Shown here: piece after piece, positions 2,367 to 8,950 of the stretch
How the letters are laid out: every line of letters begins with the position of its first letter
Position numbering within the stretch: the stretch's first letter is position 1
Assembly: GCA_903889565.1 (NCBI GenBank)
Contig: CAISYC010000012.1
Span: 1 to 52,625 of the forward strand
DNA: 52,625 bases
DNA from: an uncultured beta proteobacterium
GTDB lineage: Bacteria > Pseudomonadota > Gammaproteobacteria > Burkholderiales > SG8-41
Direction: 5' to 3'
Program-made: the position numbers and the translations under genes
Notes under the pieces: generated by a model
Database searches by the model: none
Told to the model about the DNA's origin: nothing
Seen by the model: the letters and a program-made list of their open reading frames with translations, nothing else

Positions 2367-3596
2367 ATGTCCGACGCCAATTCCGTGCCGATTGTTAAAC
2401 GCAGCGCGCGTGAATTGGCGCTGTTGCTCGCCGCATTATCGATGCTGGGGCCGTTTTCGATCGACACCTACATGCCGTCGTTTCCGGAAATCGGACAGTC
2501 GTTCGGCGCGACCTCGATGCAATTGCAATTTACGATCAGCGCCTTTCTCGCGCCATTCGCGACCATGGCGTTGTTTCACGGCGCGATTGCGGATTCGTTC
2601 GGCCGGCGGCCGGTGATCCTGATCAATCTTTTGATATTCATTGCGGCCAGCGCCGGCTGCGCGTTGGCGCAGGTTTACCATCAGCTGTTGTGGTGTCGCG
2701 TGATGCAGGGTTTCGCCGGCGGCGCCGGCATGATCGTCGGCCGCGCGATGATCCGCGACCGCTTCGCCGGCGCCGAGGCGCAGCGCATGATGTCGTCGGT
2801 GACCATGATCTTCGGTCTCGCGCCGGCGATTGCGCCGATCATCGGCGGCTGGCTGCAGGCCGCGTTCGGCTGGCGTTCCGTGTTTGTGTTTCTCGTGCTC
2901 TATGCGGCCTCGTTGCTGGTCGTCTGCAGCTGGCGCCTGCCGGAAACACTGCCGCGCCGCGAGCTTCAGCCGTTTGCGGTGCGGCCCTTGCTCGCCAATT
3001 ACGGACGCGTGCTGGGCAGCCTGCGTTTCGGCCTGCTGTCGTCGGCGATCGCGTTCAATTTCGCCGCCTTCTTTCTGTATATCGCGGGCGCACCGACCGT
3101 GATTTATCAGTGGCTGGGGTTGAACGAACGCGAGTTCGCCTGGTTGTTCGTGCCGGGCATCAGCGGCATTGTCATCGGCGCCTTTGTCTCGGGGCGCGTC
3201 GCCGGCCGTCTCGCGGCATGGCAGACCTTGCGCCTCGGTTATGGCGTGATGTTCGCCGCCGTTGTCTGCAACGTCGGTTACCATTTTACCGCGCCGCCGG
3301 CGCTGCCGTGGACCGTGCTCTGCGTCATGCTCTATACCGGCGGCATGGCGATTGCGACGCCGACCCTGACGCTGCAGGCACTAGATTTGTTCCCGCATAA
3401 TCGCGGCATGGCCGCATCGCTGCAGGCGTTTCAGCAGGGTATTTTTACCGCGATCACGGCGGTCGCGATCGTGCCGCATGTCGCTGACTCGGCGCCGGCA
3501 ATGGCGTTGACGGCGGCAACGCTGCTGGCATGCGGCGCGCTGTGCGGACACGGTTTTCTGCGCCGGCCGCGCAACAAGGAGAAACAGCATGCATGA
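2367..3596 (+). CDS. Bcr/CflA-family drug resistance MFS transporter
   Basis: A 409-residue inner-membrane protein with about 12 hydrophobic segments. It carries the major-facilitator motif A after TM2 (GAIADSFGRRPVIL) and an antiporter-type motif C in TM5 (GLAPAIAPIIGGWL). The N-terminus (LSMLGPFSIDTYMPSFP) is diagnostic of the Bcr/CflA subfamily of DHA1 drug:proton antiporters, which export bicyclomycin, chloramphenicol or sulfonamides in characterised members. The substrate here cannot be read from sequence. The gene starts 18 bases after the comM frame, and its last 8 bases overlap the next gene, so it is probably cotranscribed with the VIT-family gene. Confidence 0.9.
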   Translation: MSDANSVPIVKRSARELALLLAALSMLGPFSIDTYMPSFPEIGQSFGATSMQLQFTISAFLAPFATMALFHGAIADSFGRRPVILINLLIFIAASAGCALAQVYHQLLWCRVMQGFAGGAGMIVGRAMIRDRFAGAEAQRMMSSVTMIFGLAPAIAPIIGGWLQAAFGWRSVFVFLVLYAASLLVVCSWRLPETLPRRELQPFAVRPLLANYGRVLGSLRFGLLSSAIAFNFAAFFLYIAGAPTVIYQWLGLNEREFAWLFVPGISGIVIGAFVSGRVAGRLAAWQTLRLGYGVMFAAVVCNVGYHFTAPPALPWTVLCVMLYTGGMAIATPTLTLQALDLFPHNRGMAASLQAFQQGIFTAITAVAIVPHVADSAPAMALTAATLLACGALCGHGFLRRPRNKEKQHA

Positions 3597-4617
3597 AATC
3601 ACCAGCTGGTCCGAGGAACTGCGCGCCGCCTATCTTTATCGCGTGGTTGCGCAAGCCGAAGCAGGCACGCCACGAGAAAAACTTTTTCTCGAACTCGCCA
3701 ATGAGGCCGAGGGGCAGGCCGCGATCTGGGCTGGCAAGGCGCGCGCCGCCGGCGCGATGCTGCCGGAATTCGTGCCCGATATGCGCGCGCGCGTGGTCGC
3801 CGGTCTTGTGCGCAGCCATGGCCCGCGCAAGCTGCGCACAGTGCTGGCGGCGATGAAGGTGCGCGGCATGTCGGTGTATGCATCCAACAGCGCCGGTCAG
3901 GTGATACCGCACCAGCTCGATGATGTCGGTCATCACAGCGGGCTCTCCGGCGGCGGCAATCTGCGCGCGGCCGTATTCGGCATCAACGACGGCCTGATCT
4001 CGAACGCCAGTCTGATCATGGGAGTGGCGGGGGCCAGCGCCAGTGCGGCGACCATATTGCTGACGGGCGCGGCGGGACTCGTCGCCGGCGCGTTTTCGAT
4101 GGCCGCCGGCGAATACATTTCAGTGCGCTCGCAACGCGAAATGTTCGAGTACCAGATCGGCCTCGAACGCGACGAACTCGCCGCCTACCCCGAAGAAGAA
4201 GCGCATGAACTTGCCTTGATCTATGAAGCGCGCGGCATCGCGCCGGCAGAGGCGCGGCGCATGGCGCAGACCGTGATAACCGATCCCGAGCGCGCCCTTG
4301 ATGCACTGGCACGCGAGGAGCTCGGCCTCAATCCCGAAGACCTGGGTTCGCCGTGGGGCGCGGCGATTTTTTCATTTCTGTCGTTCGCAGCGGGCGGCGC
4401 GATTCCCTTGCTGCCATTCGTTTTTCATGCCGGCAGCGCGAGTTTCCCGATCGCTGTTTTGCTCACCGCGATCGCACTGTTCAGCGTCGGGGCCACACTC
4501 TCGTTGTTCACCGGGCGCAATGCGTTGTTAAGCGGGCTGCGCATGCTGGCGATCGGCGCGGCCGCCGGCAGCGTGACTTTTCTGGTCGGCCGTCTGCTTG
4601 GCGTCAGCGTGGGCTAG
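3589..4617 (+). CDS. VIT1/CCC1-family iron/manganese transporter with ferritin-like N-terminus
   Basis: A 342-residue protein. An N-terminal helical domain (about residues 1-95) resembles the rubrerythrin/ferritin-like module found fused to VIT transporters. The VIT domain follows (about 120-342) with the characteristic GINDGLISNASLIMGVAGA in TM1, an EYISVRSQREMFE stretch, and three C-terminal membrane segments. VIT1/CCC1 and bacterial Mbfa-type proteins move Fe(II) or Mn(II) out of the cytosol. In the ferritin-like domain the usual E-x-H ligand pattern reads EGQ, so its metal site may be degenerate. The start codon overlaps the efflux-pump stop by 8 bases, and the gene converges on the rhodanese gene with one base between stops. 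Confidence 0.85.
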   Translation: MHEITSWSEELRAAYLYRVVAQAEAGTPREKLFLELANEAEGQAAIWAGKARAAGAMLPEFVPDMRARVVAGLVRSHGPRKLRTVLAAMKVRGMSVYASNSAGQVIPHQLDDVGHHSGLSGGGNLRAAVFGINDGLISNASLIMGVAGASASAATILLTGAAGLVAGAFSMAAGEYISVRSQREMFEYQIGLERDELAAYPEEEAHELALIYEARGIAPAEARRMAQTVITDPERALDALAREELGLNPEDLGSPWGAAIFSFLSFAAGGAIPLLPFVFHAGSASFPIAVLLTAIALFSVGATLSLFTGRNALLSGLRMLAIGAAAGSVTFLVGRLLGVSVG

Positions 4618-4618
4618 A

Positions 4619-5005
4619 TCAGGTCTGCTCCCACGGCAGGCCGTGGAAGCGCCAGCCACCGCTGTTACCGCGATGATAATGTTCGTCGCGATCGCCCTCG
4701 AATCCTTCTTCTATGTTGTAGACTTTTTTGAAGCCGCTGTTCTCAAGCGCCTGCGCCGCCTCGACCGAGCGCGTGCCGCTGCGACAGATCAGCAGCACCG
4801 GTTGATCGACGCCGGCTTCGGCTTTGACCTGCGCGATGAAATGCGGATTGATCTCCCAGTCGGGCGCCTCACTCCACGCCACGTGGATTGCGCCGAGCGG
4901 ATGACCGACGAACAGAAATTCGACCTCGCTTCGCACATCGATCAGCAGGGCATCGGCGTTCGCCTGCATGAATTCGAACGCCTGTTGCGGTTTCAGGTGT
5001 TGCAT
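4619..5005 (-). CDS. rhodanese-like sulfurtransferase domain protein
   Basis: A single-domain rhodanese of 128 residues with no signal peptide, so probably cytosolic. The active-site loop CRSGTRS places the catalytic cysteine at residue 74, and the substrate-side LIDVRSEVEF motif is intact. Such proteins carry a persulfide sulfur on the cysteine and pass it to acceptors such as cyanide, thiols or biosynthetic partners. The true acceptor is unknown. I chose the ATG at 5005 (MQHLKPQQAF) because family members start there; an upstream frame extension (to 5086) has a basic sequence without similarity. It is divergent from metH. Confidence 0.85.
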   Translation of the reverse strand: MQHLKPQQAFEFMQANADALLIDVRSEVEFLFVGHPLGAIHVAWSEAPDWEINPHFIAQVKAEAGVDQPVLLICRSGTRSVEAAQALENSGFKKVYNIEEGFEGDRDEHYHRGNSGGWRFHGLPWEQT

Positions 5006-5103
5006 TTTCCGTTGGCCCGGTTTGCGTCGTTGCCAGTATAGCCGTGGCCGTGCCGATTGCCCGCGCGGCGCGCGTTTGACAAGCACCGGTGTGACGCGTA
5101 ACC

Positions 5104-5248
5104 TTCTAATTTAGCGCCGATTTCTGCAAAGCTTGCGGGCGCCGCCGGGAACAGGCATCAACCTCCAATCCGGTGGAAAACAAATACGGCTAAGCGGCGT
5201 GACCCGATCGGCACCCGCAGATCGGGTTTTTTGTTTTTTGTGGACGAC
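5104..5248 (+). promoter_or_regulatory. structured metH leader, candidate riboswitch or attenuator
   Basis: The neighbour to the left (rhodanese) is divergent, so this segment can only be the metH 5' leader. By eye it folds into three parts. The first is a hairpin GCGCC (5114-5118)/GGCGC (5138-5142) with an inner GCAA/TTGC. The second is a 7-bp helix CCGCCGG (5142-5148)/CCGGTGG (5170-5176) enclosing GGAACAGGCATCAACCTCC. The third is the terminator hairpin at 5202-5227. TACGGCTAAG at 5186-5195 loosely recalls the ACGGTAA box of cobalamin riboswitches, but the rest does not align convincingly with B12, SAM or SAH classes. A weak promoter, TTGACA (5076-5081) with TAACCT 17 bases later, may start it. 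Confidence 0.5.
5202..5239 (+). terminator. intrinsic terminator inside the metH leader
   Basis: The stem ACCCGATC/GATCGGGT encloses the loop GGCACCCGCA and is followed at once by TTTTTGTTTTTT. It ends ten bases before the metH ATG. No gene transcribed rightward lies just upstream, so its likely role is conditional termination of metH transcription. Confidence 0.75.

Positions 5249-8950
<3,702 letters not shown>

Follow-up and report, generated by a model that had tools for sequence, protein, structure and literature searches.

The metH locus

The window, the whole stretch of 52,625 nucleotides analysed here, carries the gene for B12-dependent methionine synthase, metH, and a short leader in front of it. 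From 5′ to 3′, this leader consists of a promoter-like motif, a hairpin (P1), an inserted hairpin (P3), a ligand strand and an intrinsic terminator, followed by the metH ATG (Table 1). An earlier note on this DNA had described a strong terminator ten bases before metH and the lack of a rightward gene directly upstream, and both observations hold. The terminator stem lies at 5201-5228, and its U tail, which runs to 5239, stops ten bases short of the start codon at 5249. Upstream, the leader is flanked by a leftward rhodanese-domain ORF, and the closest credible rightward gene (3589-4617) ends at 4617. A rightward ORF at 4598-5041 in the mechanical ORF list is antisense to the rhodanese ORF and was taken as spurious. 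Beside metH in some relatives, ORFs resembling the rhodanese ORF (4619-5086, minus strand) were recognized by eye.

Table 1. Features of the metH leader and its flanking genes, in window positions
Feature	Position	Strand	Basis
Rhodanese-domain ORF, divergent from metH	4619-5086	-	Pfam PF00581, 57.3 bits
Putative sigma-70 promoter TTGACA-N17-TAACCT	5076..5104	+	Read in sequence; start site expected about 5110-5113, just before P1
P1 hairpin, GCGCC (5114-5118) / GGCGC (5138-5142)	5114..5142	+	R2 alignment; compensated pair in G012
Possible antiterminator 5′ arm, complementary to 5209-5220	5133..5144	+	11/12 pairs including G-U
Inserted hairpin P3, stem 5143-5149/5169-5175, variable in sequence	5143..5175	+	Folding of inserts
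AAAU stack, P2 3′ strand and ligand strand, ACGGCUAAGC / AAAUACGGCUAAGC	5182..5195	+	R2 alignment
Intrinsic terminator, stem 5201-5209/5220-5228 (9-bp outer stem), U tract to 5239	5201..5239	+	Sequence and folding
metH, B12-dependent methionine synthase	5249..8950	+	NCBIfam TIGR02082, 1714.6 bits, and PRK09490, 2140 bits, both above cut-off

Architecture of the aptamer

The two helices that had been pointed out before the terminator (5114-5142 and 5142-5176) coincide with P1 and the inserted hairpin P3. The loop of P1 holds a third strand, AUUU (5120-5123), and the 5′ strand of a second helix, P2, GCUUGC (5131-5136). P2 is read as a pairing of 5131-5137 with 5187-5195, and TACGGCTAAG (5185-5194) forms the pseudoknot and ligand strand. 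In the alignment to R2, a covariance model described below, the P1 and P2 pseudoknot with conserved AUUU, CUUGC and GCUAA is that of a SAM-II riboswitch. The P3 inserts differ widely in sequence among the 53 that were folded, of which 35 beat 95% of their dinucleotide shuffles (mean z -2.4); against such shuffles the P3 of the window leader gives z -1.8 and p 0.055.

The folding energy of the window leader is no better than chance (z -1.1, equalled by 27 of 200 shuffles; z -0.5 and 61 of 200 in a second run). It is conservation, in a second genomic copy and in copies in relatives, and not folding energy, that sets the leader apart from chance. The minimum-energy fold, a three-way junction pairing GCGCCG with CGGCGU, was rejected as the functional structure; this pairing is lost in G010 and competes with the conserved P1.

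The covariation test of the helices that the earlier note had called for gives good support to P3, one pair in P2 and no variation in P1 within the alignment used, A2. This alignment was picked by a pattern requiring GCTAAAG, so that its invariance at that site is by construction, and one weak row (L081:1331-1403) was removed before it was built. P1 is invariant within A2 and so shows no covariation there; in the metH leader of G012 it is kept through a compensated pair, GCGCU/AGCGC. P2 shows a single double change, G-C to A-U in L062, and 13 of 500 shuffles do equally well. An extension of P2 on its 5′ side (columns 21-111 of A2) is paired only in part and is not claimed.

Assignment to the SAM-II family

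An Rfam scan of the window leader returned no family at the gathering threshold, and relaxing E to 10 added nothing but a miRNA match on the opposite strand that looks like chance; the RF00521 (SAM-II, SAM_alpha) gathering score was not reached, and that model gave no match even at E up to 10. R2 was built from 59 leaders with an intact GCTAAAG core, the six metH variants being left out, and matches the window at 5110-5200 on the plus strand with 46 bits (E 5.3e-13), the second-best match in the window scoring 10.7 bits. The five other intact metH variants score 39.7-45.8 bits. As the training leaders of R2 include insert-free forms, the window leader is connected to RF00521 members through intermediates. 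Because R2, which contains no GCUAAGC leader, finds it, the window leader is by homology a SAM-II (RF00521) riboswitch and not a new class, though it fails the RF00521 score. Rfam probably misses it owing to the inserted hairpin and a one-base deletion in the core.

RF00521 recognizes many sister leaders. In the family to which the genome belongs, 73 of 74 genomes match at E <= 1 and 43 of 74 exceed the cut-off, and the over-cut-off matches coincide, where compared by eye, with insert-free places found by the model R1 (see below). The 14 control genomes gave no match over the gathering score, with sub-threshold matches in 7 of 14 in a permissive search. Class-wide, 71 of 274 genomes match at E <= 1e-4 and 24 of 274 lie over the cut-off, against 0 of 14 controls. 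In a permissive Rfam scan of 19 related loci, only the insert-free L014 reached SAM_alpha (32.0 bits, cut-off 36), and its RF00521 alignment places GAUUUGA, GCUUGC and GCUAAAG.

The earlier note had recognized a structured leader with a terminator, had thought a riboswitch plausible, and had listed SAM among the possible ligands and divergence among the options, all of which agrees with this assignment. Its statement that the layout matches no known SAM class is overturned, since a SAM-II pseudoknot appears once the inserted hairpin is allowed for (R2 and the RF00521 sisters). The Rfam check that it had suggested thus gave a divided answer: no clear match for the window copy, and clear matches for the sister leaders counted above.

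Other copies in the genome and in relatives

A DNA search detected a second copy in the same genome (72% identity, E 3.3e-11). R2 places copies in this genome before the O-succinylhomoserine sulfhydrylase gene metZ (80.4 bits) and before metX (63.1 bits); metX, metZ and metH encode three steps of one pathway. RF00521 scores 33.9 and 25.9 bits on two other copies of the genome (cut-off 36). Matches at E <= 0.01 occur in 18 of 60 genomes searched, the window's own included, and the clear ones precede metH, metZ-like or related genes, or metX. R1, a covariance model from 21 related leaders, matched 74 of 74 family genomes and 220 of 300 sampled from the order (own genome included). Elements read from R1 hits precede metX, metZ, a cystathionine gamma-synthase-family gene (L010), metH (L043 and L071, where the metH fragments are partial and below the whole-protein cut-off) and metK (L085); some further gene names come from protein starts only.

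Tandem SAM-II copies may be common. Two aptamers at L184:163-222 and L184:318-376 (G000:C50) score 63.0 and 36.3 bits and lie about 95 bases apart; the first has its own terminator, and the pair precedes a 108-aa ORF that matched neither NCBIfam nor Pfam. Separately, weaker second SAM-II-like elements were observed beside the main ones in three other genomes (L213:13-72, L232:18-92 and L081:1331-1403, all on the minus strand).

Promoter, terminator and proposed switching

The earlier note had not remarked on the putative promoter. Its TTGACA is common to all seven metH leaders compared; a stricter promoter scan called none in the window leader. A simple terminator scan found one terminator against 1.0 expected. 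Since promoter, aptamer and terminator follow one another in that order, the leader is likely an OFF switch acting by transcription termination. A methionine/SAM pathway gene downstream and a terminator platform are both as in SAM-II; the direction of control is presumed for the window copy and is better founded for the metZ leader of the same genome. There, the aptamer contains 11 nt complementary to the terminator (p 0.001), and in silico the antiterminator gives way to P1, P3 and the terminator as the last 3′ bases are added.

An antiterminator in the window copy is possible. Its complement is interrupted, with a longest Watson-Crick run of 6 (p 0.14, not significant), and the fold is 7 kcal/mol weaker than the terminator fold. 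The complement reaches 10-11 nt in the metH leaders of G013 and G007 (0 of 1000 shuffles each) and is interrupted in those of G012 (p 0.056) and G010 (p 0.19). Applied to 67 leaders, a generic antiterminator test gave mixed results (mean z -1.3, 23 of 67 below -2, the six metH leaders between -1.6 and 0.0); it used mononucleotide shuffles, and several of its rows are unreliable, an early T run inside the terminator having been taken.

In the mechanism proposed, the RNA would start just before P1, and the emerging aptamer would fold as an H-type pseudoknot, first through P1 and then through P2, which would span the inserted P3. With ligand bound, GCUUGCGGGCGC would stay paired inside the aptamer, the terminator at 5201-5239 would form and metH would be off. 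Without ligand, part of the GCUUGCGGGCGC strand would pair with the terminator sequence, and possibly the 5′ strand of P1, GCCGAU, would also pair with AUCGGC of the terminator arm, so that RNA polymerase would read through. The ligand would be SAM, the end product of the pathway, its amino-acid end being held by altered contacts because the equivalent of A50 is absent.

The altered ligand core

The SAM-V structure, with a core that can be superposed on that of SAM-II, shows how SAM is held: U47 forms a pair with its adenine, the U20:A48.U9 triple lies opposite the sulfonium, and A50 contacts the amino-acid end; replacement of A50 by inosine severely reduced SAM binding (PMC6061858). Aligned to R2, the window core GCUAAGC differs from the canonical GCUAAAG by a one-base deletion. 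By alignment, U5191 takes the place of U47, the base of SAM-V that binds the adenine. Equivalents of A48 and A49 are also present, and the base that would match A50 is absent between A5193 and G5194. Within the core, the adenine and sulfonium half (AUUU, CUUGC, U5191 and AA) is intact.

To get around the built-in invariance of A2, 68 sources were realigned to R2 and gave 70 matches, 60 of the regions having been drawn from better R1 hits. All 62 comparison matches retain GCUAAA, and the 8 chosen variants read GCUAAGC. The A50-equivalent A, characteristic of SAM-II, is absent in the window, in 5 other metH leaders and in 2 Oxalobacter metX leaders. Neighbouring positions change as well. The GA after UUU, preserved in 60 of the 62 comparison matches, is altered in all 8 variants (in those of Oxalobacter through the A alone). 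The A before GCUUGC, preserved in all 62, is altered in 6 of the 8, the exceptions being the window leader and G005. Without the deleted A, GCUUGC can form six pairs with GC(U)AAGC around a bulged U, as read in all 8. A search of 84,980 species genomes with the variant-core pattern, whose spacing limits may miss other variants, gave 16 hits. Six precede methionine genes: four are metH leaders of betaproteobacterial MAGs, and two are Oxalobacter leaders of metX, a gene identified through NCBIfam; the other 10, 3 of which were displayed, were judged chance. The single hit among 399 genomes of the order (G148, without an R1 match) was likewise judged chance, and the gap limit of that pattern excludes the window copy itself.

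Conservation and decay within the genus

Six metH leaders in the genus, that of the window included, carry the GCUAAGC core. Their aptamer and terminator are better conserved than the fourfold metH sites. Compared with the window, the five others are 83-100% identical in the 5′ half of the aptamer, 86-100% in its 3′ half and 88-100% in the terminator; the insert reaches 54-72% and the fourfold sites 51-71%. Absence from close relatives, which the earlier note would have counted against a regulatory leader, is found in part. The metH leader was read in 13 of the 15 genus members, all but G009 and G011, the latter without a metH match. Six leaders are intact, the one in G003 is degenerate, G001 and G006 keep the terminator only, and G002, G004, G008 and G014 have none. 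In G003, a close relative with a metH 86-87% identical, it is the core that is degenerate (R2 13.6 bits). Outside the genus, 23 metH upstream regions of 230 bases each yielded one element, with a canonical core (G016). An R2 match of 10 bits in L015 lies on the strand opposite metH and was judged chance.

The G001 and G006 leaders (L088 and L089) retain promoter and terminator; where the aptamer would be, they have unrelated sequence that includes a GCCAGTAAAGCTGGC hairpin ahead of the terminator. The metH proteins of the genus form two groups that share about 68-69% identity over their first 250 aa. The window type more closely resembles the proteins of genera g9 and g7 (mostly 82-88%), in which the regions read showed no leader. 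Because both protein groups carry the same variant leader, the sequences suggest gene replacement behind a conserved leader.

Alternative readings

The reading favoured here, and held to be somewhat probable, is that a SAM-II-family riboswitch controls metH by premature termination, with SAM most likely as ligand. Family membership, conservation and layout are direct results, whereas SAM, the OFF direction and the antiterminator of the window leader are presumed. Copies before metX and metZ in the same genome argue for it, so that the logic of end-product control would be common to these genes. Several observations weigh on the other side. The missing A is the very base whose inosine replacement impaired SAM-V (PMC6061858); a close relative, G003, is degenerate, G001 and G006 lack the aptamer and four more members lack the leader; the window antiterminator is interrupted, P1 does not vary within A2, covariation in P2 is slight, and the RF00521 score is not reached. 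That the leader is instead a different riboswitch or a protein attenuator (cobalamin, SAH, T-box or other) is highly improbable. The dependence of MetH on B12 would fit such an element, and in Comamonadaceae MetH has been described as belonging, in a taxon-specific way, to SAH riboswitch regulons (PMC4239095). Against it stand the SAM-II homology at E 5e-13 and the Rfam scans, which besides the outcome given above showed no match of the window leader to cobalamin, SAH, SAM/SAH or T-box families, at gathering or at E up to 10. The SAM-V model (RF01826) gave none under the same settings, nor any in the permissive scan of the 19 related loci, and the platform here is a terminator and not translational.

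The ligand of the window leader is probably still SAM. A tentative proposal is that the leader derives from SAM-II by deletion of the gripping A and accompanying changes at nearby near-invariant positions, in what look like separate events in betaproteobacterial metH and Oxalobacter metX, and that it has either a changed specificity or a new hold on SAM. Stated as a shift in specificity, with the amino-acid end of the pocket re-shaped for another adenosyl compound (decarboxylated SAM, methylthioadenosine or similar) or for SAM by other contacts, the idea appears unlikely. It would account for an intact adenine and sulfonium half beside another half that changes together, for the recurrence of the core in two lineages and for conservation above fourfold sites; metH and metX are nevertheless ordinary targets of SAM feedback, and no comparative feature favours another ligand. 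Quite unlikely, too, is a decaying relic whose aptamer no longer binds and whose terminator gives a fixed low read-through. The imperfect window antiterminator is compatible with decay, as are the three of 13 genus leaders that are degraded or reduced to a terminator and the four without any. Six leaders nonetheless share the altered core although their fourfold sites are only 51-71% identical to the window, and the same core recurs in Oxalobacter metX.

Relation to known elements

SAM-II has been placed in betaproteobacteria before, with Bordetella in a 2005 alignment (Corbino 2005, PMC1273637) and a 2009 paper calling it common in alpha-, beta- and gammaproteobacteria (PMC2704228); the excerpted text of a 2014 study reports SAM_alpha only in Rhizobiales and Rhodobacterales (Leyn 2014, PMC4239095). 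Like the window leader, RF00521 members have a P1 hairpin loop with GAUUU and CUUGC, a P2 pseudoknot to GCUAA, a promoter just before P1, in many members a terminator downstream, and methionine genes (PMC1273637). The window leader differs in its inserted P3 of about 33 nt, in its core (GCUAAGC in place of GCUAAAG), in being undetected by RF00521 and in its gene, metH not being named among SAM_alpha targets in the excerpted PMC1273637. SAM-V shares a nearly identical binding core and a P3 hairpin between P1 and the AAA strand, but is translational and has A50 (PMC6061858).

A third relative is the 'metXZ' element of Leyn 2014. It was introduced as new, with a pseudoknot and a terminator-antiterminator, in betaproteobacterial metX and metZ leaders (PMC4239095). 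Because gene context, the pseudoknot (of regions 1-4 and 2-6) and taxon fit, metXZ is very probably the same SAM-II family, compared here by its published description. The excerpted account differs from the window leader in covering metX and metZ only and in naming no ligand. A literature search found metXZ and riboswitch together only in PMC4239095, and one for SAM-II with betaproteobacteria or variants returned no description of the core deletion, which is no proof of its absence in print. As read from sequence, the metH leader is a SAM-II element that carries an inserted hairpin and lacks one ligand-contact base. It is now assigned to a riboswitch class, and metXZ as a probable SAM-II element suggests a common SAM feedback for metX, metZ, metK and metH in this betaproteobacterial group. 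Two lineages in which the same contact base is missing also offer a natural experiment on the SAM-II pocket, for which the canonical metZ leader of this genome is a control.

Two further observations concern earlier records. A SAM-II element lies before metK at L085:1502-1559 on the plus strand (TIGR01034, 621 bits, over cut-off), a gene for which the excerpted 2014 survey gives no known regulator in betaproteobacteria (PMC4239095). Bp2_287 (RF02424), a Burkholderia sRNA family, gave sub-threshold matches of 18.0-29.5 bits (cut-off 70) at 5 of the 19 related loci (L002, L019, L021, L022 and L023), on the strand opposite the element, and may be the SAM-II leader recorded on the wrong strand.
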